Positions 3,654 to 15,553 of a stretch of 64,000 bases of DNA are shown in pieces. Made by a program: the position numbers and the translations under genes. Position 1 is the stretch's first letter, and every line of letters starts with the position of its first letter. This DNA comes from Agrobacterium sp. AGB01 (GTDB taxonomy: Bacteria > Pseudomonadota > Alphaproteobacteria > Rhizobiales > Rhizobiaceae): positions 682,001 to 746,000 of the forward strand of contig NZ_JACVAB010000002.1 of NCBI RefSeq assembly GCF_014851585.1, given 5' to 3'. The notes below the pieces were generated by a model. It did no database searches. It was not told the DNA's origin and saw nothing but the letters and a program-made list of their open reading frames with translations.

Positions 3654-4715
3654 CTACTCGCGGATAACGAGAAGGTCGCGTGCGTCGAAATACAAGGTCA
3701 CGACAGAATCATGTTCTGGTGGCTGCATGCCGGGATTATTGAACATGTCGAACGAGATTTTGTGACCGGCGACATCCAGACGCGTACGGATGACCGAGCC
3801 AAGGAAGTTGCTGCTTAGCACCTTTCCGGAAATCGACGAGTCCTTGTTTTCCGATGCAGACAGCGTTCCTGCTTCCGGGCGAAGCGCGAGCGAAATCTTA
3901 TCGCCCTGTTTGTGAGTGGCAATTGGTTCTGCCAACTTCAGTGTCGTTTCGCCGATCTTGACCGTGGCGCTGGCCGGATCAACCACCGTTGCCTCAAGGA
4001 TATTGAGCGTGCCGACGAAGGATGCCACAAAGCGGGTTTCCGGCTTGTTGTAAACCTCAAACGGCGTGCCGATCTGGTCTGCACGGCCGGCATTCATCAC
4101 CACGATGCGGTCGGAAATCGACAAGGCCTCTTCCTGATCGTGGGTCACGAAAATGGTGGTGATGCCTAGCTGACGCTGGATCTGGCGAATTTCTTCACGC
4201 AGCGACACGCGGATCTTGGCGTCGAGAGCCGAGAGCGGTTCGTCGAGCAGCAGCACTTCCGGCTTTGGCGCAAGAGCACGGGCCAAGGCAACACGCTGCT
4301 GCTGACCACCGGACATCTGATAGGGGTAACGGTCTGCCAGATGTTCGAGGTGAATGAGCGCCAGCATTTCCTTGACGCGTGCGTCGATCTCGCTCTTTGG
4401 CTTGCCGGCGACCTTGAGGCCGAATGCGACGTTTTCAAACACGTTCATGTTTGGAAACAGGGCGTAGGCCTGAAACACCATGCCAATGTTGCGTTGGTTT
4501 GGCCGCAATGTCGTCTGGTTGCGACCGTTGATGACGATGTCACCGTCGCTGGGTGTCTCGAAACCGGCGATCATGCGCAGGATGGTGGTCTTGCCGCATC
4601 CCGATGGGCCGAGGAACGAGATGAACTCACCTTTTTCGATCGCCATGTTGAAGTCATGGACGACCTGCACCGGGCCAAAAGATTTTTTAATGTTCTGAAG
4701 TGTCAAAAAGCTCAT
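3654..4715 (-). CDS. ABC transporter ATP-binding protein (PotA/FbpC-like), last gene of the import operon
   Basis: This 353-residue ATPase has Walker A GPSGCGKTT, Q-loop MVFQAYALFP, signature MSGGQQQR, Walker B VLLLDEPLSALD and the H-loop FVTHD. A C-terminal TOBE-type regulatory region (from about residue 235, FVASFVGTLNILEA) is typical of the spermidine/ferric/phosphonate importers. It starts 10 bp after the second permease and is fed by the operon beginning at the binding protein at 7599. It powers uptake at the cytoplasmic face. Substrate assignment depends on the neighbours, which suggest an amine or amino alcohol. This is inference. Confidence 0.93.
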   Translation of the reverse strand: MSFLTLQNIKKSFGPVQVVHDFNMAIEKGEFISFLGPSGCGKTTILRMIAGFETPSDGDIVINGRNQTTLRPNQRNIGMVFQAYALFPNMNVFENVAFGLKVAGKPKSEIDARVKEMLALIHLEHLADRYPYQMSGGQQQRVALARALAPKPEVLLLDEPLSALDAKIRVSLREEIRQIQRQLGITTIFVTHDQEEALSISDRIVVMNAGRADQIGTPFEVYNKPETRFVASFVGTLNILEATVVDPASATVKIGETTLKLAEPIATHKQGDKISLALRPEAGTLSASENKDSSISGKVLSSNFLGSVIRTRLDVAGHKISFDMFNNPGMQPPEHDSVVTLYFDARDLLVIRE

Positions 4716-4725
4716 AAAATCTTCC

Positions 4726-5508
4726 TCAGGCCTTTGGAGGCGCGCCCTTCTGGTAGCGTGAGACGAGTTGGATCAGACCAAGGCAACCCCATGTAATGCC
4801 GAAGGAAATCACGGCAAGGGCGGCAGGCTCATAAGCGCGGTTGGCGCCGAGCAACTGCATGTAAGGTCCGAAGGCGGGGCGGTTCAAAAGCGCTGCCATG
4901 GTGAATTCACCAATGACGATGGCAAAGGTCAGGAATGCGCCTGACAGGACGGCAACGAGCACGTTTGGCAGGATGATGCGCGACAGGATGGTAAACCATC
5001 CCGCACCCAGGCTCTGGGCGGCTTCAGTCAGTGTGCCGATATCGATGGTACGCAGACCCGTATCGACGGCACGATACATGTAGGGCAAAGCAAGTATTGC
5101 ATATCCGAACATCAACAACAGGTCGGTGCCGAAGGCAGAACCGGTCAGCGGCAGCCAGCTCGAGGTGTTGTAAAGGCGGATGTAACCGAACACGATAACG
5201 ATGGCTGGAATAACCAGTGGCAGCAGCGTGACGAATTCGACGTAAGGGCGAAGCGCTGGCAGTTTAAGACGCACCCAGTAGGCAGTAGGAACCACCAGCA
5301 ACACGCCGAACACGATGGTGAAAAGCGCCATCATCACAGAGTAGCTGAAGGTTTCCTGAAAACGCGGATCGCCAAGCACCTTGGCGTAAGCGTCGAATGA
5401 ATATTCGCCGCGTCGCATTTTCATGGAGAAGTTTGTCATGCCGATCAACGGCAGGGCAAAATATAGAATGCCGAAAACCAGCGCACCCCAGGCAAAAATA
5501 CGCTTCAT
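4726..5508 (-). CDS. ABC transporter permease (PotC/PhnV-like)
   Basis: A protein of 260 residues with about six membrane helices and the binding-protein-dependent permease loop EAAQSLGAGWFTILSRIILPN (about residues 183-203), which contacts the ATPase. The chosen ATG at 5508 overlaps the stop of the upstream permease (ATGA) and has AAGGTGG five bases before it. A GTG three codons earlier is the alternative. It forms the second half of the translocation channel with the 5505-6395 product. Confidence 0.92.
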   Translation of the reverse strand: MKRIFAWGALVFGILYFALPLIGMTNFSMKMRRGEYSFDAYAKVLGDPRFQETFSYSVMMALFTIVFGVLLVVPTAYWVRLKLPALRPYVEFVTLLPLVIPAIVIVFGYIRLYNTSSWLPLTGSAFGTDLLLMFGYAILALPYMYRAVDTGLRTIDIGTLTEAAQSLGAGWFTILSRIILPNVLVAVLSGAFLTFAIVIGEFTMAALLNRPAFGPYMQLLGANRAYEPAALAVISFGITWGCLGLIQLVSRYQKGAPPKA

Positions 5509-6395
5509 TTCAGCCACCTTTCACTGCGGGCGCGCAGCCAGATATAAAGCGCGTTGGCAATGCCGGTCAGTACGATCATGCCGAATGCAAGTGCGTAACC
5601 CAAATGCGGGTTACCGAGAACGTCGCCACGGATCTGCGCAAAAAGCAGAATGGGCACAATGCTGAGCGATGAACCGGTCAATGCGATAGCGGTTGCAACA
5701 GCGCCAAAGGCGTTGGCAAACAGCAGCGACATGGTGCCGAGAATGGATGGCAGCAGGATGGGGAATGCAACCATGCGCCAGTATTGGAAACCGCTGGCGC
5801 CGAGGATTTCGGCGGCTTCGCGCCATTCGCGCTTCAAACCATCCAGGGCAGGGGTGATGATGAGGATCATCAGCGGGATCTGGAAGAACAGATAGGTGAT
5901 GGTCAGGCCCCAGAACGACAGCAGGTTGAAGCCCATCAGGCGTAGGTCAAGACCAAGCTGTGTTTTCAGGAAAACCGTGACGAGACCAACAGGGCCGAGT
6001 GTGGCGATGAAGGCGAAGGCCAGTGGCACACCGGCAAACTGCGAGGCAACACCGGAAAAGGTCAGCAGCGGGCTACGGATCCAGTTGGGCAGGCCACCCA
6101 GCACAACGGCTGCGGCCACACCAAAACCGATCAGGCAGCCGAGAAGGGCCGAGGCGATGCTGATTTTGATGGAAATCCAGTAGGCGGCGATAATCGAGGG
6201 CGTGTACAGACCCTTGATATTGTCCAGTGTAAAACTGCCATCAGGATTTTGAAAAGCGCCAATGACGATTTTCATCGTCGGCAAAAAAAGGAAAAGAACA
6301 ACAAATATAAGAAAAGGAACAACGCCCAGCCAATCAAGCGGAAGACGAGGTCGCTTGCTTGTCTGCCGGGTCGCGCCAGTGTTGGCTGATGACAT
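5505..6395 (-). CDS. ABC transporter permease (PotB/PhnU-like)
   Basis: A 296-residue permease beginning with a short polar tail and then helix 1 (WLGVVPFLIFVVLFLFLPTM). The EAA loop REAAEILGASGFQYWRMVAFPILLP lies near residue 210. The frame could start 24 codons earlier at a TTG, but that region contains the terminator-like hairpin that follows the binding-protein gene, so the ATG at 6395 is preferred. It is translationally coupled to the next permease through an ATGA overlap. Confidence 0.92.
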   Translation of the reverse strand: MSSANTGATRQTSKRPRLPLDWLGVVPFLIFVVLFLFLPTMKIVIGAFQNPDGSFTLDNIKGLYTPSIIAAYWISIKISIASALLGCLIGFGVAAAVVLGGLPNWIRSPLLTFSGVASQFAGVPLAFAFIATLGPVGLVTVFLKTQLGLDLRLMGFNLLSFWGLTITYLFFQIPLMILIITPALDGLKREWREAAEILGASGFQYWRMVAFPILLPSILGTMSLLFANAFGAVATAIALTGSSLSIVPILLFAQIRGDVLGNPHLGYALAFGMIVLTGIANALYIWLRARSERWLK

Positions 6396-6445
6396 GCCGT
6401 GTGCCCCAAACGCCGCAGTTGATGCGGTCTCTTGCTTCAATTTTA

Positions 6446-6480
6446 TAAAAACCGCCCCAGCACGCAATGGCCGGGGCGGC
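6446..6480 (-). terminator. Intercistronic hairpin with T-run between binding-protein and permease genes
   Basis: Read on the minus strand, CCGCCCC pairs with GGGGCGG around a 14-base loop, followed by TTTTT. It sits 13 bp after the binding-protein stop (6493) and before the permease start at 6395. In ABC operons such hairpins usually cause partial termination or protect the upstream mRNA, so that binding protein exceeds permease. Here this is inferred from position and shape. Confidence 0.75.
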
Positions 6481-6492
6481 TTGTATCAATGC

Positions 6493-7599
6493 TTACTGAA
6501 CGTTTGCGCCGACAACGCTATCCCAGCCAGCTGTTACAGCGGCTTTGTTGTCGTCAACTTCCTGAAGGGTCGGGAAGTATGCCTTTTCGTAAGCAGCTGC
6601 TGGTGGCAGGGCATCAAGCAGATCCTGTGGGATCTTGTTGGCCTTTGCCATCGCATTGAAGCGGATCGGGTGGCAGAAGCCCTTCAACCAGCCGAGCTGA
6701 CCTTCGTCAGAATACAGGTGTTCCATCCAGAGCTTGGCAGCGTTCGGGTGTGGCGCGTAAGCCGAGATACCCTGTACGTAAACGCCAGCCAGAACGCCCT
6801 TGGCAGGAACGACAACTTCTGTCGGAGGGTTGCCATTCAGTGTCTTTGCCCAGGACAGAGCATTGTAGTCCCACGCGATGACGATCGGGGTTGCGCCCTG
6901 TGCCAGCGTACCGGCCTTGCCGATAACTGGTACGAAGTTGCCAGCCTTGTTGAGTTCTGCAAAGTACTTCAGGCCAGCTTCTCCGGCGTCCTTGCCAGAC
7001 TTGGCGTCGGACGCAAGACCAGCAGCCAGAACGCTGAGGATAGCCTGGTTGGAAGCACGTGGGTCACCAGCAAGAGCAACCTGGCCAGCATATTCCGGCT
7101 TCAGCAAATCAGCCCAGTCGGTTGGAACGTTGGATACGAGATCCTTGTTCACCATGATGGACATAACACCGTAGTAGTCGCCGTACCAATAGCCTTCGGC
7201 ATCCTTAACTTCATTTGGAATTTCGTCCCAGGTGGAGACCTTGTAAGGCTGCAACAGCCCTTCAGCCTTTGCCTGTGGACCGAAAGCCAGACCGACGTCG
7301 ATAACGTCAGGAGCCTGCGGACCCTTGTTGTCCTTGTTTGCCTTGATGGCTTCGATTTCGTCAGCGGAACCGGCGTCTGGGTTCAGTTCGTTGACGGTGA
7401 TCTCTGGATACTTGGCTTTGAAGGCTGCGATGACATCGCCATAACCACACCAGTCGTGTGGCAGGGCGACGGTAGTGAGCATGCCTTCCTTCTTGGCTGC
7501 TTCGATGAGTTCTGCACTTGGCTGAGCAGATGCGACGGCCGTGGAGGCGATCACAATGGCTGTAGACAGTGCTAGCAGGCGGCGGCTGTTAGAGATCAC
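6493..7599 (-). CDS. ABC transporter periplasmic substrate-binding protein
   Basis: A 368-residue exported protein with a clear signal peptide (NSRRLLALSTAIVIASTAVASAQ, cleavage after ASA near residue 25). The mature part has the family 1 solute-binding fold, with segments such as DVIDVGLAFGPQA and YWYGDYYGVMSIMVNKD resembling iron/polyamine/2-aminoethylphosphonate binding proteins. The start is GTG, preceded by AGGAG at a seven-base distance. It is the first gene of a four-gene minus-strand operon, with its promoter in the 298-bp gap 7600-7897. The ligand is unknown. The adjacent catabolic genes point to a small amine. Confidence 0.93.
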   Translation of the reverse strand: MISNSRRLLALSTAIVIASTAVASAQPSAELIEAAKKEGMLTTVALPHDWCGYGDVIAAFKAKYPEITVNELNPDAGSADEIEAIKANKDNKGPQAPDVIDVGLAFGPQAKAEGLLQPYKVSTWDEIPNEVKDAEGYWYGDYYGVMSIMVNKDLVSNVPTDWADLLKPEYAGQVALAGDPRASNQAILSVLAAGLASDAKSGKDAGEAGLKYFAELNKAGNFVPVIGKAGTLAQGATPIVIAWDYNALSWAKTLNGNPPTEVVVPAKGVLAGVYVQGISAYAPHPNAAKLWMEHLYSDEGQLGWLKGFCHPIRFNAMAKANKIPQDLLDALPPAAAYEKAYFPTLQEVDDNKAAVTAGWDSVVGANVQ

Positions 7600-7777
7600 T
7601 TTTTTCTCCTCTTCGTGTTTCTCAGGCGTCGGCGGACGCTGATACTTCCGTTACGTGAACTTAATGTGACGATCAGATTGCGTTGCCCTTATCCGGATTC
7701 CGCCGCTTTTCGCCTTTTTTCCGCCATCTTTGCGTTTTGTTGCAACCCATGGAGCGGAAAAATATTTTTTTGTTCAG

Positions 7778-7789
7778 TGAAAAATTTCA
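7778..7789. promoter_or_regulatory. Possible RpiR operator upstream of the ABC operon
   Basis: TGAAA-AA-TTTCA is a dyad about 180 bp upstream of the binding-protein start. A similar dyad lies in the regulator's own promoter region (8856-8871), which is why I list it. The surrounding gap 7600-7897 shows no convincing gene. The AT-rich makeup means chance occurrence is possible. Confidence 0.3.
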
Positions 7790-7897
7790 AGGCGTCTATT
7801 CCGGCTTATGTTCTCCCCATCACGCGCCGGAAGCGTTGTAAGGTTATCCAAGCAGCAGATGCAATTTTCGTCAAGGAATATGCATTCTGACTGATGT

Positions 7898-8776
7898 TCA
7901 TGTTCTGTCGGGTCTGCGGAACAGACGTGTCTGCTCGAAAAGTCCTTCCAGCGCGTTCATGCGTTCCTTTGTTTCATCCCATGAGCGGCTCTGAACGGCT
8001 TCGATCAGGGCTTCAACAACGAACAGGGTAACAACGGACGAATCCCACGCGGACGGCGCTTCGATCCGCACCCTAAATGTATGCAGTGCATGTTTTGCGA
8101 CAGGGGAGGTCCATTGGTCGGTAAACAGCAGAATGCTGACGCCATTGGCATGGGCAACCTCTGCAAGGGTCGCCATGTCATGTTCGTAACGCCTGATGTC
8201 GAAGATCACCAGCACGTCACCGGCGCTCATGTTCAGCATATATTGCGGCCATGAACTGGAGTTGGACGACATCAGCGTCGTTTTCGGGCGGATGACCTGC
8301 ATATGGGTGAAGAAATATTCCGCGATCGATCCGGTGATGCGGCCACCCACGAAATAGAGGCTGCGCTTACGGTCGGCGAGCAGCGCAGCGGCATTGTCGA
8401 AGGAGGCGGTGTCGAGATCGCTCAACGTGTCGCGCAGATTGCTGGTAATGGCATCGGCGAAGCGGTTGAGAATGTGCAGGCCAGGCGCATTGGATGCCCA
8501 GCGGTCATGTTTGGCAATCGGGCCGGAAATCGTTGCTTCCAGTTCCTGATGCAACCTTGCCTGAAATTCCGGATATCCCTTGAAGCCAAGCTTCTGCACC
8601 ATGCGCACGACGGTTGGCGTGGAGACGCCAGCGTTTTCCGCGACCGTGGTTATGCTGCCCAGTCCTGAGACGGGGTAGTTGGCAAGCAGGCTTTCCGCGA
8701 GCTGTTTTTCAGCTCTCGTCAGGTTTTCATAATGGCTATGGATGACATCCGATACGGTTGCCGCTGCACTTTGCAA
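7898..8776 (-). CDS. RpiR/MurR-family transcriptional regulator with SIS domain
   Basis: A 292-residue protein. Residues 1-80 form the RpiR helix-turn-helix (LTRAEKQLAESLLAN, then VAENAGVSTPTVVRMVQKLGFKGYPEFQARL). Residues 125-260 are a SIS (sugar isomerase-like) effector domain (SLYFVGGRITGSIAEYFFTHM, GDVLVIFDIRRYEHD). The start is probably TTG, with GGAGGGGG upstream. SIS domains normally bind phosphosugars. Here the gene sits between an ABC operon and a divergent amine-catabolic run, so it probably controls both. Which ligand it senses is not visible. Confidence 0.9.
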   Translation of the reverse strand: MQSAAATVSDVIHSHYENLTRAEKQLAESLLANYPVSGLGSITTVAENAGVSTPTVVRMVQKLGFKGYPEFQARLHQELEATISGPIAKHDRWASNAPGLHILNRFADAITSNLRDTLSDLDTASFDNAAALLADRKRSLYFVGGRITGSIAEYFFTHMQVIRPKTTLMSSNSSSWPQYMLNMSAGDVLVIFDIRRYEHDMATLAEVAHANGVSILLFTDQWTSPVAKHALHTFRVRIEAPSAWDSSVVTLFVVEALIEAVQSRSWDETKERMNALEGLFEQTRLFRRPDRT

Positions 8777-8855
8777 ATTGTTCCCCCTCCGGTCTTTTTG
8801 CCGGTCTGGATTTGCAGATTAACAATGGGGATGTTGGGGGAGTCAATCGAAAACT

Positions 8856-8871
8856 TGAAAAGATTTTTTCA
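8856..8871. promoter_or_regulatory. Possible operator in the divergent RpiR/amidohydrolase promoter region
   Basis: TGAAAA-GATT-TTTTCA is a 6+6 dyad in the 178-bp gap between the divergent starts at 8776 and 8955. A second palindrome AAGAATTCTT follows at 8900-8909. Placement between the regulator and the catabolic genes fits an autoregulatory operator. The resemblance to 7778-7789 is limited to the TGAAA/TTTCA arms. Confidence 0.35.
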
Positions 8872-8954
8872 GAATTTCATTGACAGAATGTGAATGGTGA
8901 AGAATTCTTTTCTTGCTGCGTGGGGACGTGGCATGATCTGGCGGGGTTCTTTGC

Positions 8955-9746
8955 ATGACTTTGCGTTCACGGTTTTTCACTGATGCTGAGGGTGACACTG
9001 TCGCCGTGGAAAACGCGGATGCCGTCGGTGATGTGCTATTGATCTGCGAACATGCGTCACGGGAAATTCCGGAGTATTTTGGCACGCTGGGCTTGGATGC
9101 CAATGTGCTGTCCAGCCACATTGCCTGGGACCCAGGCGCACTGGCGGTCTCCAGACTGCTGGTGGACAAGCTTGATGCAACCCTTGTTTATCAACGATAT
9201 TCACGACTGATCTACGACTGCAACCGCCCGCCGGAATCCTTGGCAGCAATGCCGTCTTCCAGCGAGATTTATGAAATACCGGGTAATCGGCAGATTTCCG
9301 ATGCCGAGCGTTTTGCCCGCACATCGGCGGTTTACATGCCGTTTCACGAGAAAGTGGATGACATTATTGCCGCCCGTCTGGTGCAGGGGCGTCAGCCCGT
9401 CATCGTGACCATTCACAGCTTCACGCCTGTTTATTACGGCCAGCTCCGTGAGGTTCAGGTCGGCATTCTTCATGACGTCGACAGCCGTCTGGCCGACGGA
9501 ATGCTGGCGGCGGCAAACAGTGATTCTCCTGAAGGGGGTAAATCCTATCAGGTGGAAAGAAACCAGCCTTACGGACCGGAAGATGGCGTGACGCACACAT
9601 TGCGTCTGCACGCACTGCCGGAAGGTTTGCTCAACGTGATGATCGAAATTCGCAACGATCTCATCAGGGATGAAAAGGAGCAGGAAGCTGCCGCGGATTT
9701 TGTGGCGAGACTTGTGAAACAGGCACTGTCATCGTTGGCACGATGA
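8955..9746 (+). CDS. N-formylglutamate amidohydrolase family protein
   Basis: A 263-residue protein with the FGase family landmarks in order: ICEHAS (about 30), HIAWDPGA (about 55), RYSRLIYDCNRP (about 80), TIHSFTP (about 155), NQPYGPEDGVTHTLRLHA (about 210) and MIEIRNDLI (about 235). The classical member (HutG type) removes formate from N-formyl-L-glutamate in histidine breakdown, but no hut genes are present here. It heads a plus-strand run with a gamma-glutamyl synthetase and dehydrogenases, so a plausible role is hydrolysis of a gamma-glutamyl amide, releasing glutamate and the oxidised amine. That role is inference; the family is seen directly. Confidence 0.88.
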   Translation: MTLRSRFFTDAEGDTVAVENADAVGDVLLICEHASREIPEYFGTLGLDANVLSSHIAWDPGALAVSRLLVDKLDATLVYQRYSRLIYDCNRPPESLAAMPSSSEIYEIPGNRQISDAERFARTSAVYMPFHEKVDDIIAARLVQGRQPVIVTIHSFTPVYYGQLREVQVGILHDVDSRLADGMLAAANSDSPEGGKSYQVERNQPYGPEDGVTHTLRLHALPEGLLNVMIEIRNDLIRDEKEQEAAADFVARLVKQALSSLAR

Positions 9747-9967
9747 AACAATCTGGGGAGATGGCGGGCAAAGATCCGCACTCGCAATAAGAATATTGGA
9801 AATACTGCCGCACGTTCAGACAGCCGAAAAGGCGCGAAGTGCTGCAGGGGAACAGTAAATGCGCATGGGCGCTAGCGGATCAATCGTTCCGAACGCACCC
9901 GATCAACTGGGGCAAAATCGGCCATTCCGGCTGACTGCCTGTTTTTTCTTTTTCAGGAGAGAAGAGC

Positions 9968-11467
9968 ATGGACAGTTCATCAGCAGGCGTCAGCTATAAA
10001 AAAGCAGACGCTTCCTATTTCGAAAAACGAGGACTTTCACGCTACGCCGGTGTGTGGTCACTTTGGTCACTTGGGGTTGGCGCGGTTATTTCAGGGCATT
10101 TTTCCGGCTGGAACTTCGGGTTTTCTACCGGCGGGTGGGGTGGCATGCTCGTCGCGGGCATAATTATCGCGGTCATGTATCTCGGCCTTACTCTTTCCAT
10201 TGCTGAAATGAGCCCGGCGCTGCCGCATACGGGTGCGGCCTATTCCTTTGCCCGCACAGCCATGGGTCCGTGGGGCGGTTTTATCACCGGCCTTTGTGAG
10301 AACGTCGAATATGTTCTCACCCCCGCCGTTATCGTGACTTTCATCACGGCCTATGTGAACTCAATCCTTGGGCTTGATCCCGTCTATTCACCCTTCTTAT
10401 GGGTCTTGTTCTACGTGATCTTTCTTGCTCTCAACATTTTCGGGCTTGAGCTTTCCTTCAAGGTAACGCTGGTCATCACGCTGATTTCGCTCGGTGTTCT
10501 GGTGTTCTTCTGGATCAGCGCCATTCCGAACATGGACTTTTCGCGTTGGGCATTGAACATCGGCGTCGGGCCTGATGGCGCTGCGGTTGAACTGCCAGAG
10601 GGCAATGGATCATTCTTCCCATTCGGTTTTTCCGGTGTTCTGGCCACGCTGCCATTTGCCGTTTGGTTGTTCCTTGCCATCGAACAGTTGCCGCTGACGG
10701 CCGAGGAATCCGTTGATCCAAAGCGTGATATGCCGAAGGGCATCATTCTCGGCATTATCACGCTAATGATTTCGGCATTCATGATTGTGCTGCTCAACCC
10801 ATCGCTGCCAGGCGTGGGTGCCTTCCATCTCGGTTCGTCGCTTGAGCCGCTGCTGGATGGTTTTAAGGCCGTCTATGGTGACGGTGGCGTGGTTCTGCTC
10901 GGTCTCGTTGCCTTGACCGGTCTGATCGCCAGCTTCCATACGATCCTTTATGCGCAGGGACGCCAGATCTATTCGCTGTCGCGTGCCGGATATTTCCCTA
11001 CAGCACTTTCTGTCACCCACCCGAAATTCAAAACCCCACATGTTGCAATGCTGACCGGTGCTCTCGTCGGCCTCAGCGTCATGTTGGTAATCTGGTTCTC
11101 GCTGGGCGCAGACCAGGGTGGCAGCATCATTGGCAGCGTGCTGCTGAACATGGCGGTGTTTGGTGCGATGTTCTCCTACATCATGCAGGCGATCTCGTTC
11201 ATCATGCTTCGCCGCAATCTGCCGAACATTGAACGGCCATTCCGTTCTCCCGTCGGTATTCCAGGCGCAGTGCTGACCATCATCATTGCTGTCGTAACTC
11301 TGCTGTATCAGGTTCAGGACCCTAACTTCTCAAAGGGTGTTGTCTGGGTGGCCGTATGGTTTGCCGTTGCCATTGCTTACTTCGCACTGGTCGGCCGTCA
11401 TCGTCTGATCCTGTCTCCGGAAGAAGAGTTTGCTCTGGAGCACAAGCAGGCCGCTACGCGTGCTTAA
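9968..11467 (+). CDS. eat: Amino acid/ethanolamine permease, APC superfamily (Eat type)
   Basis: A 499-residue carrier with twelve hydrophobic segments. The N-terminal block RYAGVWSLWSLGVGAVISGHFSGWNFG and the later AYSFARTAMGPWGGFITGLCENVEYVLTPAVI match the ethanolamine permease subfamily as I know it. Helix-breaking GVGAVISG is the substrate-binding segment of APC carriers. The start has AGGAGAGAAG upstream. The preceding gap (9747-9967) holds no gene that I can see and may carry the promoter. The cargo is probably ethanolamine or a related amino alcohol. The subfamily call is from memory of motifs, not alignment. Confidence 0.82.
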   Translation: MDSSSAGVSYKKADASYFEKRGLSRYAGVWSLWSLGVGAVISGHFSGWNFGFSTGGWGGMLVAGIIIAVMYLGLTLSIAEMSPALPHTGAAYSFARTAMGPWGGFITGLCENVEYVLTPAVIVTFITAYVNSILGLDPVYSPFLWVLFYVIFLALNIFGLELSFKVTLVITLISLGVLVFFWISAIPNMDFSRWALNIGVGPDGAAVELPEGNGSFFPFGFSGVLATLPFAVWLFLAIEQLPLTAEESVDPKRDMPKGIILGIITLMISAFMIVLLNPSLPGVGAFHLGSSLEPLLDGFKAVYGDGGVVLLGLVALTGLIASFHTILYAQGRQIYSLSRAGYFPTALSVTHPKFKTPHVAMLTGALVGLSVMLVIWFSLGADQGGSIIGSVLLNMAVFGAMFSYIMQAISFIMLRRNLPNIERPFRSPVGIPGAVLTIIIAVVTLLYQVQDPNFSKGVVWVAVWFAVAIAYFALVGRHRLILSPEEEFALEHKQAATRA

Positions 11468-11489
11468 CGCACGCCAATAAAAAGAAACG

Positions 11490-11512
11490 GACGGCCCACA
11501 ATTCGGGCCGTC
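11490..11512 (+). other. Intercistronic hairpin between permease and synthetase genes
   Basis: GACGGCCC pairs perfectly with GGGCCGTC around a seven-base loop, 23 bp after the permease stop and 28 bp before the next start. The tail is TCCTTTCG rather than a T-run, so it is more likely an mRNA-processing or stability element, or a leaky terminator, than a strong end point. Confidence 0.6.
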
Positions 11513-11540
11513 TCCTTTCGATTGAGGGATCAGATAAAAA

Positions 11541-12911
11541 ATGACCGCCACCTATACATTCGATGAACTGAAAAAAGACGTGACCGAAGGGCGTATCGAT
11601 ACTGTGCTGGCATGTCTGGTTGATATGCAGGGCCGCCTGATGGGCAAGCGTTTTCAGGCGGAATTTTTCGTGGAAAGTGCCCATGAAGAAACGCACAGCT
11701 GCAACTACCTGCTGGCGACCGACATGGAGATGGAGACTGTTGCCGGCTACAAGGCGACAAGCTGGGAAAAGGGATATGGCGATTATACCATGAAGCCTGA
11801 CCTCTCGACGCTGCGGCGCGTGCCATGGCTGGAAGGTACGGCACTGGTACTGTGCGACGTGCTGGATCATCACACTCATGCAGAGGTGCCGCATTCACCG
11901 CGTGCCATCCTCAAAAAGCAGGTGGCGCGACTGGCCGAGATGGGGTTGAAGCCCTTCATGGCAACGGAGCTGGAGTTTTTCCTATTCGACCAGACCTATG
12001 ATGCGGCGCGTGAAAGCGGATATCGCAACCTGCACCTCGCCAGCGGTTACAACGAGGATTACCACATCTTCCAGACCACCAAGGAAGAAGATGTAATGCG
12101 CGCGCTGCGCAAGGGCCTGCAGGGAGCAGGCATTCCGGTGGAAAACTCCAAGGGTGAGGCATCGCCCGGCCAGGAAGAAATCAACGTGCGGTATGCCGAT
12201 GCGCTGACCATGGCTGACCGCCATTCGATCATCAAAAATGCTGCCAAGGAAATTGCCTGGTCCAAGGGCAAGGCCATCACCTTCCTTGCCAAGTGGAATT
12301 ATAATTCCGCCGGCAGTTCGTCACATATTCACCAGTCCCTTTGGAGCCTTGACGGCAAGACGCCAGCCTTCTTCGACAAGGGGGGAGAGCATGGCATGTC
12401 TGACACAATGAAGCATTACATGGCGGGTCTGTTGGCGCATGCCAGCGAGATTACCTATTTCCTTGCGCCCTATATCAACTCCTACAAGCGGTTCATGGCT
12501 GGTACGTTTGCACCAACCAAGGCCATCTGGAGCAAGGACAACCGCACGGCAGGGTATCGCCTGTGCGGTGAAGGCAGCAAGGCGATCCGCGTCGAGTGCC
12601 GGGTGGGTGGTTCCGATCTCAATCCGTATCTCGCCATGGCGGCGCTGATTGCCGCAGGCATTGATGGCATTGAGAAGAAACTTGAATTGGAGCCTGCTTT
12701 CGTAGGAGATGCTTACGGTGCGAAAGAGGTGCGGGAAATTCCACACACCCTTCGCGCGGCAACTGCGGAATTGAAATCATCTGCCATGTTGCGGTCTGCT
12801 TTTGGCGATGAGGTGATTGACCACTATGTGCGCGCTGCCGAGTGGGAACAGGAAGAATACGACCGTCGCGTGACCGACTGGGAGGTCGCACGCGGTTTTG
12901 AGCGAGCATAA
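11541..12911 (+). CDS. Glutamine synthetase-like gamma-glutamylamide (probably amino alcohol/polyamine) synthetase
   Basis: A 456-residue type-I GS fold enzyme. Visible landmarks are ATELEFFLFD (about 140), the metal/glutamate loop SKGEASPGQEEINVRY (about 205), SSSHIHQSLW (about 260), the ATP loop APTKAIWSKDNRTAGYRL (about 320-337) and RVECRVGGSDLNPYLAMAA (about 350). The ammonia-site sequence differs from true GlnA, and the genes around it are a permease, aldehyde and alcohol dehydrogenases and an amidohydrolase. The likely reaction is ATP-dependent ligation of glutamate to an amine, as in PuuA, IpuC or the ethanolamine enzyme GlnA4 of Streptomyces. It is probably not the housekeeping GlnA. 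The exact amine is inferred. Confidence 0.87.
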   Translation: MTATYTFDELKKDVTEGRIDTVLACLVDMQGRLMGKRFQAEFFVESAHEETHSCNYLLATDMEMETVAGYKATSWEKGYGDYTMKPDLSTLRRVPWLEGTALVLCDVLDHHTHAEVPHSPRAILKKQVARLAEMGLKPFMATELEFFLFDQTYDAARESGYRNLHLASGYNEDYHIFQTTKEEDVMRALRKGLQGAGIPVENSKGEASPGQEEINVRYADALTMADRHSIIKNAAKEIAWSKGKAITFLAKWNYNSAGSSSHIHQSLWSLDGKTPAFFDKGGEHGMSDTMKHYMAGLLAHASEITYFLAPYINSYKRFMAGTFAPTKAIWSKDNRTAGYRLCGEGSKAIRVECRVGGSDLNPYLAMAALIAAGIDGIEKKLELEPAFVGDAYGAKEVREIPHTLRAATAELKSSAMLRSAFGDEVIDHYVRAAEWEQEEYDRRVTDWEVARGFERA

Positions 12912-13022
12912 GCAACACTGGGTCGAGCCGTGACATGCGGTTTCGGTCCGGTGTTAAAAGACAAGAATATGGAGCGACGAAAACAATGGTTTGCGTCATT
13001 CCGTTAACACAGGAAAACGATC

Positions 13023-14411
13023 GTGGTTATGATCCAGAATATCTCACCCATTGACGGTTCGGTGTATGCCGAACGCGAGGCGCTGTCGCTGGACGCGGCA
13101 CGAGCTGCCGTTGCCAAAGCACGCAAGGCCCAGAAGGATTGGGCGCGGCGTCCGCTTGAGGACCGTGTGCAACTGGTGCTGAAGGGCGTGGCACGCCTCA
13201 ATGAAATGGTCGGTGAGGTGGTGCCGGAACTGGCACATATGATGGGCCGCCCCGTACGTTATGGTGGTGAGTTCAAAGGTTTCAACGAGCGCTCCAATTA
13301 CGTCGCCTCGATTGCGGCTGATGCTTTGGCGCCGCTGGTGATCGAAGAAAGCGGCAATTTCGAACGTCGCATTGAGCGCGAACCACATGGTGTCGTGTTT
13401 GTTATCGCACCATGGAACTACCCTTACATGACTGCGATCAACACGGTTGCGCCGGCTCTGATGGCAGGCAACACGATCGTGATCAAACATGCCGCCCAGA
13501 CCCTGCTGGTGGGTGAGCGCATGGTACGTGCCTTTGTCGAGGCGGGTGTACCCGAAGACGTGTTTATCAATGTGTTTCTGGATCACGGCACCACGTCTGC
13601 CCTGATTTCCGAAGGACTGTTCAACTTCGTCAACTTTACCGGTTCTGTTGAAGGCGGACGTTCCATCGAGCGCGCTGCGGCTGGCACCTTTACCGGCCTT
13701 GGTCTGGAGCTTGGCGGCAAGGACCCCGGTTATGTCATGGAAGATGCCGATCTTGACGCAGCGGTCGATACGCTGATGGATGGAGCGACCTATAATTCGG
13801 GCCAGTGCTGCTGCGGGATCGAACGTATCTATGTCAATGAAGCGCTTTACGATGCGTTTGTCGAAAAGTCCGTTGCCTGGGTGTCCAATTACAAACTCGG
13901 AAACCCGCTGGAGCAGGAAACAACGCTGGGACCGATGGCCAACAAGCGTTTTGCCAAGGTGGTGCGCCAGCAGATTGCCGATGCGGTTGCCAAGGGTGCA
14001 AAGCCGCTGGTCGATGCAAAGCTATTTGCTGCCGATGATGGTGAAAGCGCCTATGTCGCGCCGCAGATCCTGGTCAATGTCGATCACTCCATGGAGTTCA
14101 TGACCGAGGAGACCTTTGGTCCTGCCGTCGGCATCATGAAGGTCAAGAATGACGACGAAGCCATCGCACTGATGAATGACAGCAAATACGGACTGACCGC
14201 ATCCCTGTGGACGCAAGACCCGGCAAGGGCAGGGCGGATTGGTCGCGAGATTGAAACCGGCACCGTTTTCATGAACCGGGCCGACTACCTCGATCCTGCA
14301 CTGTGCTGGACCGGCGTGAAGGAAACCGGTCGTGGCGGTTCGCTGTCCGTCATCGGTTTCCAGAACCTTACCCGTCCAAAGTCCTACCATCTGAAGAAAG
14401 TCACGAAATGA
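13023..14411 (+). CDS. NAD(P)-dependent aldehyde dehydrogenase
   Basis: A protein of 462 residues from GTG at 13023 (AGGA eight bases upstream); an ATG six bases later is possible. It carries the ALDH landmarks: PWNYPYM with the oxyanion Asn, cofactor loop FTGSVEGGRSI, general-base Glu in LELGGKDP, nucleophile in GQCCC, and the late EETFGPA. In this locus it would oxidise a gamma-glutamyl aldehyde, made by the coupled alcohol dehydrogenase, to the acid. Its last bases overlap the next gene by ATGA, so the two dehydrogenases are made together. Confidence 0.9.
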   Translation: MVMIQNISPIDGSVYAEREALSLDAARAAVAKARKAQKDWARRPLEDRVQLVLKGVARLNEMVGEVVPELAHMMGRPVRYGGEFKGFNERSNYVASIAADALAPLVIEESGNFERRIEREPHGVVFVIAPWNYPYMTAINTVAPALMAGNTIVIKHAAQTLLVGERMVRAFVEAGVPEDVFINVFLDHGTTSALISEGLFNFVNFTGSVEGGRSIERAAAGTFTGLGLELGGKDPGYVMEDADLDAAVDTLMDGATYNSGQCCCGIERIYVNEALYDAFVEKSVAWVSNYKLGNPLEQETTLGPMANKRFAKVVRQQIADAVAKGAKPLVDAKLFAADDGESAYVAPQILVNVDHSMEFMTEETFGPAVGIMKVKNDDEAIALMNDSKYGLTASLWTQDPARAGRIGREIETGTVFMNRADYLDPALCWTGVKETGRGGSLSVIGFQNLTRPKSYHLKKVTK

Positions 14412-15553
14412 ATATTGTCGCGAACTGGAGCTATCCGACCGCAGTCAAGCTGGGCCGTGGACGGATCAAGGAACTTGCGGATGCCTGCAAGACACTGGGC
14501 ATCAAGAAGCCGCTGCTGGTAACCGACCGTGGTCTGGCAAGCATGGCAATTACCGGCCATGCGCTGGATGTTCTGGAGCAGGCAGGTCTTGGTCGTGCAA
14601 TCTTTGCCGAAGTTGACCCAAACCCGAATGAAATCAATCTTGAAGCCGGTGTAAAGGCGTTTAAGGACGGTGGTCATGACGGCGTTGTTGCCTTTGGTGG
14701 CGGCTCCGGCCTTGATCTTGGCAAGGCGGTCGCCTTCATGGCTGGCCAGACCCGACCGGTATGGGACTTCGAAGATGTTGACGACTGGTGGACACGTGCC
14801 AATGTAGAAGGCATCGCCCCGATCGTTGCCGTGCCGACCACAGCAGGCACCGGCTCAGAAGTCGGGCGCGCCAGCGTTATCACCAACTCCAAGACCCATG
14901 TGAAGAAGATCATCTTCCATCCGAAGTTCTTGCCCGGCGTTGTTATCTGCGATCCGGAACTGACGGTCGGTATGCCGAAGATGATTACCGCCGGTACCGG
15001 CATGGATGCCTTTGCTCATTGCCTTGAGGCCTATTCGTCACCGTTCTTTCATCCAATGAGCCAAGGCATTGCGCTGGAAGGTCTGCGTCTGGTGAAGGAA
15101 TATCTGCCACGCGCTTACAAGGATGGCAGCGATATCGAAGCCCGCACCAATATGATGGCTGCTGCTGCCATGGGCGCTGTTGCTTTCCAGAAGGGGCTTG
15201 GTGCCATCCATTCGCTGTCGCACCCTATCGGTGCTGTCTACAACACCCACCACGGCATGACCAATGCGGTGGTGATGCCGGCGGTGCTGCGCTTCAATCG
15301 CCCCGCCATTGAAGACAAGATTGCTCGCGCGGCAGCCTATCTCGGCATTGAGGGTGGCTTTGACGGTTTCTACAATTACGTTCTTGAGCTTCGCAAAGAG
15401 CTGGGTGTGCCAGAAAATCTGACGGCAATGGGCATCAAGCCAGACCGGATTGATGAGCTGACAGCCGAAGCCATCAAGGACCCAAGCTGCGGCGGTAATC
15501 CGGTGCCGATGACACTGGAAAACACCAAAAAACTGTTCGAAGACTGCTTCTGA
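14408..15553 (+). CDS. Iron-containing alcohol dehydrogenase
   Basis: A protein of 381 residues. The ATG at 14408 overlaps the upstream stop; a longer frame exists but runs inside the aldehyde dehydrogenase gene. Motifs are AFGGGSGLDLGKAVA (nucleotide site), PTTAGTGSEVGRASVIT, DAFAHCLEAYSS and GAIHSLSHPIGAVYNTHHGMTNAVVMP, which supply the Asp/His ligands of the group III Fe-ADH metal site. It probably oxidises the hydroxyl end of a gamma-glutamylated amino alcohol, feeding the aldehyde dehydrogenase. A hairpin terminator follows 35 bp after the stop, inside the next gene's start. Confidence 0.92.
   Translation: MNIVANWSYPTAVKLGRGRIKELADACKTLGIKKPLLVTDRGLASMAITGHALDVLEQAGLGRAIFAEVDPNPNEINLEAGVKAFKDGGHDGVVAFGGGSGLDLGKAVAFMAGQTRPVWDFEDVDDWWTRANVEGIAPIVAVPTTAGTGSEVGRASVITNSKTHVKKIIFHPKFLPGVVICDPELTVGMPKMITAGTGMDAFAHCLEAYSSPFFHPMSQGIALEGLRLVKEYLPRAYKDGSDIEARTNMMAAAAMGAVAFQKGLGAIHSLSHPIGAVYNTHHGMTNAVVMPAVLRFNRPAIEDKIARAAAYLGIEGGFDGFYNYVLELRKELGVPENLTAMGIKPDRIDELTAEAIKDPSCGGNPVPMTLENTKKLFEDCF

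Follow-up and report, generated by a model that had tools for sequence, protein, structure and literature searches.

Probable ethanolamine catabolism through gamma-glutamylated intermediates

The gamma-glutamyl ethanolamine pathway of Chromohalobacter salexigens and Agrobacterium tumefaciens C58 is reportedly the subject of work by Vetting (2015), Gerlt (2016) and San Francisco (2015), as cited in later papers. In Phaeobacter sp. MED193, the operon MED193_10021-10056 comprises RpiR, GGAH, EtoVWX, ETAGA, GAADDH and GETADH, its proteins are induced on phosphorylethanolamine, and its TRAP protein EtoX binds ethanolamine with a Kd of 7.9 uM; the same account cites Vetting et al. for a demonstration of the function of related genes in both C. 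salexigens and A. tumefaciens C58 (PMC10132767, in the parts concerned with this operon). The C. salexigens set, as given in Table 2 of PMC9397018, consists of PF00120, PF00465, PF00171 and PF05013. The GlnA4 enzyme of Streptomyces forms gamma-glutamylethanolamide in vitro; growth on ethanolamine requires it, and the sections of PMC6529630 on this enzyme predict the later steps to gamma-glutamylglycine and glycine. We analyzed a stretch of 64,000 nucleotides (hereafter, the window) from the 5.62-Mb genome of Agrobacterium sp. AGB01 (contig NZ_JACVAB010000002.1, positions 682,001 to 746,000), in which a five-gene operon on the plus strand (8955-15553) very probably, judging from its sequence, converts ethanolamine to glycine via gamma-glutamylation under the control of an RpiR-family regulator, with ethanolamine serving as both nitrogen and carbon source.

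In the proposed route, an Eat-like permease would import ethanolamine, and a glutamine synthetase (GS)-like ligase would use ATP to join glutamate to it, giving gamma-glutamylethanolamide, a reaction with an in vitro precedent in Streptomyces GlnA4. An iron-type alcohol dehydrogenase (Fe-ADH) would then oxidize the alcohol to the protected aldehyde, an aldehyde dehydrogenase (ALDH) would convert this aldehyde to gamma-glutamylglycine, and a hydrolase of the N-formylglutamate amidohydrolase (FGase) family would split the product into glutamate and glycine. The same order of steps was put forward for Streptomyces and C. salexigens, and it is the one depicted for Phaeobacter. An earlier note, made from the letters of the window alone, had arrived at import, gamma-glutamylation, two oxidations and hydrolysis to glutamate and an amino acid (glycine if the substrate is ethanolamine), and this scheme is supported, agreeing step by step with the pathway as treated in the relevant parts of PMC6529630, PMC9397018 and PMC10132767. 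The note presented the route as a candidate, though the pathway is already in print; the window holds a further member of it, with an Eat-like importer replacing the TRAP system.

The five open reading frames (ORFs) were confirmed at the coordinates that the earlier note had given, and Pfam upheld its assignment of five families in a single orientation. They encode, in this order, an FGase-family hydrolase, the predicted gamma-glutamylglycine hydrolase (GGAH; 8955-9746, PF05013, 134.6 bits); an Eat-like permease of the APC family, the predicted ethanolamine importer (9968-11467, PF13520, 113.8 bits); the GS-like ligase, a predicted gamma-glutamylethanolamide synthetase (11541-12911, PF00120, 344.9 bits); the ALDH, predicted to turn the gamma-glutamyl aldehyde into gamma-glutamylglycine (13023-14411, PF00171, 387.9 bits); and the Fe-ADH, a predicted gamma-glutamylethanolamide dehydrogenase (14408-15553, PF00465, 160.7 bits, also matching PF25137). 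The four enzyme families thus lie on the same strand within 6.6 kb, and the full gene order is RpiR, hydrolase, transporter, ligase, ALDH and ADH. The ALDH starts at GTG 13023 or ATG 13029, and its translation carries LELGGK at residue 227 and GQCC at residue 259, which we take to be ALDH motifs. The Fe-ADH most likely starts at ATG 14408 and not at the mechanical ORF start at 14303; from this start, the overlap between the two dehydrogenase genes that had been noted is a 4-base ATGA shared with the ALDH stop. Among PDB entries, only 2odf ("hypothetical protein Atu2144", 388 bits) is related to the hydrolase at E <= 0.001. The span considered in the earlier note omits the divergent RpiR regulator gene (7898-8776, minus strand) and a linked ABC importer (3654-7599, minus strand).

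The permease matches TIGR00908 (ethanolamine permease) by far the best among NCBIfam models, with 363.8 bits. EutB (PF06751) gave no match in the window's own genome, which is estimated to be 100% complete, and among 14 control genomes the same search was positive in E. coli only; the proposal of a route without EutBC agrees with this result.

Conservation of the operon and exchange of its transporter

The operon is more than a chance arrangement because its gene set and order recur in other genomes. A ligase ortholog (E <= 1e-80) was present in 43 of 398 genomes sampled across the phylum, the window's own included, and in 110 of the 151 genomes sampled from the window's family; few organisms are known for the route, but its key enzyme is common. 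Neighboring genes were sought by tblastn, with thresholds of our choosing, in 43 phylum-wide loci outside the own genome (42 genomes, one of them with two loci; at most 8 kb per side, some cut by contig ends), and Fe-ADH was found in 41, ALDH in 37, FGase in 30 and RpiR in 29 of them. The co-occurrence in other genomes that had been put forward as a check was borne out for the enzymes, all four of which stand together in 29 of the 43 loci, while the transporter varies.

Of the phylum-wide loci, 17 carry a TRAP system (DctM), 12 a permease of a second APC type and three one of the Eat type, and 11 have none of them; a transporter was counted wherever it stood in the locus, and some (e.g., in L048 and L053) are not in the slot that separates the FGase and ligase genes. 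The best 80 named loci, among which close relatives are overrepresented, include 28 with TRAP, 25 with the second APC type (downstream in L195), eight with an Eat-like permease (L170 at 57%) and 19 with none. In L127 (Pseudorhizobium endolithicum), a TRAP cassette sits within a locus that is otherwise of the Rhizobiaceae type. This variability of the transporter makes the substrate prediction testable, as TRAP and APC importers should share one ligand. Among loci with the Eat layout, the highest ALDH, Fe-ADH and RpiR identities to the window were those of L122, L126, L128, L133 and L147, a set labeled Rhizobium rhizogenes, Agrobacterium arsenijevicii, A. leguminum, Rhizobium sp. Leaf262 and A. 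tumefaciens MEJ076.

The hydrolase evolves much faster than its neighbors, being 63-72% identical between the window and L107, L108, L122, L126, L128, L133 and L147, where the ALDH is 93-96% identical. The window ligase is 81-88% identical to its seven close relatives; for this gap between ligase and ALDH, replacement of the GS-like gene by recombination was considered, and another reading of the identity matrix is that L107 and L147 have changed faster. Five loci (L072, L074, L077, L078 and L079) hold ligase and Fe-ADH together, with FGase and a close ALDH relative unfound (the only ALDH matches being weak ones, 64 bits in L077 and 91 bits in L079), and their later steps may use other enzymes. 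Ten neighboring frames scanned in loci lacking FGase offered no clear candidate for the hydrolysis step.

Linkage to genes of the beta-hydroxyaspartate cycle

The beta-hydroxyaspartate cycle assimilates glyoxylate with glycine, and linkage to its genes (bhc) fits a route that yields glycine. On two plasmids typed as conjugative, the operon is followed by bhcRABCD, namely Aminobacter sp. NyZ550 pMET3 (L202, NZ_CP114193) and A. aminovorans pAA03 (L206, NZ_CP015008; by annotation); on a Paracoccus pantotrophus plasmid typed as mobilizable (L203, NZ_CP058692) it is followed by bhcBCD, and in a Rhizobiaceae metagenome-assembled genome (L150) bhcABCD lies about 1 kb behind it. The search covered loci L038-L205 except L199 and L200, L206 being added by annotation, and within L038-L205 three or four bhc genes occurred together in L150, L202 and L203 only, with single weak matches in L077 and L186. 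The linkage is rare, since no bhc gene set was found among the 43 phylum-wide loci. Possibly, the transporter-less operon joined to bhc genes, twice on plasmids typed as conjugative, is a mobile package leading from ethanolamine to central metabolism.

Substrate of the ligase and alternative readings

The ligase finds its top PDB matches in 11zs (680 bits) and 5dm3 (655 bits), the latter presumably a C. salexigens protein, and the remaining GS chains listed score at most 183 bits. It keeps the GS positions for metal (E129, E131, E212, E220, H269 and E357), glutamate (R321 and R359) and ATP (H271 and R344); the D50 column was not used, its position shifting between alignments. GS residues E327 and Y179 are replaced by F323 and D173 in the window ligase and in all seven aligned orthologs, and both replacements are invariant throughout a 12-member alignment, whereas E. 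coli GlnA and the GlnA of the window's genome retain E and Y. GlnA4 carries F331 and V189/D186 at the corresponding places, according to the residue comparison in PMC6529630. The residue pattern of the ligase is consistent with the formation of gamma-glutamylethanolamide. Identity to the window ligase is about 49% for the Nonomuraea and Embleya ligases in the plasmid collection.

Several observations weigh against an ethanolamine-to-glycine operon. The permease lies just under the TIGR00908 cut-off of 381.75 bits, so that the "Eat-type" label of the earlier note stands for the top match and is better worded as Eat-like, the protein not being a member by the curated rule. The enzyme set is not invariant, FGase being unfound in 13 and ALDH in six of the 43 phylum-wide loci (some at contig ends), and the four bhc-linked loci have no transporter between hydrolase and ligase (three by annotation, L150 by our queries). 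The phenylalanine in place of E327 is not diagnostic either, as PuuA has Y, PauA7 has W and a paralogue in the window's own genome (L005) also has F.

Conceivably, the same chemistry could act mainly on another amino alcohol, e.g., 3-aminopropanol giving beta-alanine, with ethanolamine as a secondary substrate. The specificity of the ligase pocket is not readable from sequence, the ADH/ALDH pair suits any primary amino alcohol, and the permease scores below the ethanolamine-permease cut-off; however, phosphorylethanolamine induces the operon of like layout in Phaeobacter, whose TRAP protein has ethanolamine as a ligand (PMC10132767, same parts), the top model of the permease is nonetheless the ethanolamine permease, and the bhc linkage fits glycine. 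We consider this alternative improbable. A secondary alcohol such as isopropanolamine would yield a ketone, and the ALDH would then have no part to play.

A route for putrescine or isopropylamine, as in the Puu and Ipu pathways, shares the logic of gamma-glutamyl protection and the use of a GS-like ligase, but we give it very little credence. The ligase reaches 202.5 bits against the cut-off of 650 for NF045547 (gamma-glutamylputrescine synthetase), and it is 30% identical to E. coli PuuA and 37-39% identical to two genes annotated as ipuC in Paenarthrobacter aurescens TC1. The five genes include FGase and Fe-ADH and none for a PuuB-type oxidase or a PuuD-type hydrolase, in line with the earlier argument against putrescine, which had pointed to the missing oxidase. 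The least credible reading of all is that the ligase serves as an additional glutamine synthetase in ammonium assimilation and that the dehydrogenases next to it are unrelated: Pfam and NCBIfam do assign the ligase to the GS superfamily and public records, several of them of plasmids, name its relatives "glutamine synthetase family protein", but it scores below the NCBIfam cut-offs for GlnA (263 vs 429) and type III GS (247 vs 470), has not kept E327 and Y179, clusters with ADH, ALDH and FGase, and belongs to a genome that already encodes a GlnA above its cut-off (673.9 bits).

Regulatory region of the operon

Divergent to the ethanolamine operon lies the gene of an RpiR/MurR-family regulator with HTH_6 and SIS domains (7898-8776, minus strand; PF01418, PF01380), the predicted repressor of the operon, and the RpiR strand is opposite to that of the ligase in 29 listed loci. 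The 178-base gap between the RpiR and FGase genes is alignable in 12 loci. On the plus strand it contains a partly conserved operator-like inverted repeat, TGAAAAGATTTTTTCA (8856-8871), a -35-like TTGACA element with no clear -10 (8880-8885), of which TTGAC is invariant in the 12 aligned regions, and downstream of this element a second operator-like inverted repeat, TGAAGAATTCTTTTC (8898-8912), apparent from the same alignment. The pattern TGAARANNNNWYTTC occurs in the 64-kb window at these two repeats only, i.e., three matches (both strands of the first site counted) against 0.39 expected, a number that three of 100 shuffles also reach. The two repeats are plausible candidate operators, through which the RpiR protein probably represses the operon, as their conservation on either side of TTGACA suggests.

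An ABC importer linked to the operon

Beyond the RpiR gene, on the minus strand, the window encodes a four-gene ABC importer: a solute-binding protein (SBP; 6493-7599, PF13343, 112 bits), two permeases (5505-6467, PF00528, 37.4 bits; 4726-5517, PF00528, 38.8 bits) and an ATPase (3654-4715), the last recognized from its ORF and translation and from its recurrence beside the SBP in relatives. The gene in its place in Sinorhizobium meliloti Ak57 is annotated as an ABC transporter ATP-binding protein. Two arrangements place the importer next to the operon in Rhizobiaceae (in many of L038-L061 and L119-L151): it lies past the RpiR gene in the window and in closely related loci, and behind Fe-ADH in the genera g3 and g7. 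Within the family sample, an SBP ortholog (E <= 1e-90) was found in 85 of 151 genomes and both SBP and ligase in 67; the two lie at most 12 kb apart in 62 of these 67 and on different contigs in five (L102-L106), which entered only the comparison of upstream regions below. Their presence and absence are not strongly associated (both, SBP only, ligase only and neither in 67/18/43/23 genomes; Fisher p = 0.068), and the link between importer and ligase is thus positional only.

A PHO-box-like pattern (CTGTCAY-N4-CTGTCAY, at most three mismatches) was sought within 350 nt upstream of the SBP gene in 79 deduplicated regions. It matched in 65 of them, the window not being among these, against 2.3% of mononucleotide shuffles, in which nothing but base composition is preserved; since close relatives are among the 79 regions, these are not independent. 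Of the 65 matching regions, 61 have their best site 67-126 nt ahead of the SBP start. Control upstream regions matched less often (FGase 9/88, ligase 3/133, ALDH 3/115 and RpiR 10/82). It speaks against a phosphate-linked importer that matches in the FGase and RpiR control sets, too, are more frequent than in the respective shuffles (4.2% and 3.2%), and that the site in the window, a degenerate repeat TCGTCACATTAAGTTCAC (7655-7672, minus strand, 73 nt before the SBP start), has five mismatches of 14 and is absent from the matches with at most two mismatches listed for the own genome, where such matches are common (157 vs 80 for the reversed control). From these patterns, the importer may be phosphate-controlled in relatives, and the evidence for the window's own genome is weak.

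A tentative idea, which we hold to be rather unlikely, is that the Rhizobiaceae operon forms one half of a module for the salvage of phospholipid headgroups, in which an importer induced by phosphate starvation would bring in phosphoethanolamine or glycerophosphoethanolamine, the phosphate would be removed inside the cell, and the ethanolamine would be converted to glycine by way of the gamma-glutamyl intermediates. Such a module would bring the scavenging of phosphorus and that of nitrogen together at a single locus, by an uptake route unlike the extracellular PhoX hydrolysis described in Phaeobacter, and the importer with its PHO-box-like repeat offers a concrete hypothesis for phospholipid headgroup recycling by soil Rhizobiaceae.

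We rejected membership of the importer among the 2-aminoethylphosphonate systems, the SBP scoring far below the cut-offs of PRK15046 (66.2/310), PhnS (56.6/395.3) and phnS2 (44.4/392.75). It falls under the cut-offs of all six NCBIfam models listed. In a fold comparison (a moderate model, with a mean pLDDT of 71.3), its best match was 5t1p (Z 30.4), and the remaining 49 matches listed (Z 20.0-22.1) include sugar-phosphate, metal-citrate, polyamine, 2-aminoethylphosphonate, sulfate and maltose binding proteins, so that the fold does not name a ligand. The S. meliloti genes SMc04316-SMc04317, possible counterparts of the window importer, appear as a PhoB-linked operon for "iron transport" in the relevant entries of PMC8829014. 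A pattern for cold-shock proteins, sought since SMc04318 figures in a cold-shock paper, had no match in the loci examined. Among the titles and abstract starts listed in literature searches, none of which was aimed at it, none names this ABC importer beside the operon.

In the 18 family genomes with the importer and no ligase found, 20 chosen neighboring frames held no ethanolamine enzymes by Pfam, nine of the 20 matching no family. In one locus (L098 of G497, 6187-14849), the importer stands with an Fe-ADH and a gene beginning like a ParA-like ORF of the window, the ligase being unfound in the genome, and this looks like a partly deleted operon cluster. Likewise, L084 (8995-12133) has an Eat-like permease, 88.6% identical to that of the window and divergent to the importer, in a genome where the ligase was unfound, and in L094 a PhoD-like phosphatase adjoins the importer. 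In S. meliloti Ak57, operon (with an APC permease in the slot) and importer both lie on CP090106.1, a 3.72-Mb record titled plasmid pSymB, which may, judging by its size, be a mislabeled chromosome.

Comparison with known systems

The Puu and Ipu routes resemble the window operon in gamma-glutamyl protection by a GS-like ligase and differ in that the window has an alcohol dehydrogenase and an FGase where PuuB and PuuD stand. The GlnA4 pathway of S. coelicolor (SCO1610-1615) has in common with the window gamma-glutamylethanolamide synthetase as its first enzyme, a predicted dehydrogenase, ALDH and amidohydrolase to follow, and the loss of E327; by its figure legend, however, it employs a short-chain dehydrogenase and a glutamine amidotransferase, together with the regulator EpuRI and another permease (PMC6529630). 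All four enzyme families of the window are shared with C. salexigens (PMC9397018, Table 2). As for A. tumefaciens, Atu2144 is 91-94% identical to the hydrolases of the corresponding operons in L122, L126 and L128. The operon of Phaeobacter sp. MED193, as listed in PMC10132767, has its enzymes in the same order as the window and RpiR beside the hydrolase; it differs in carrying the TRAP system EtoVWX in the slot that an APC-family Eat-like permease occupies in the window, and the ABC importer that stands beside the window operon is outside its listed set.

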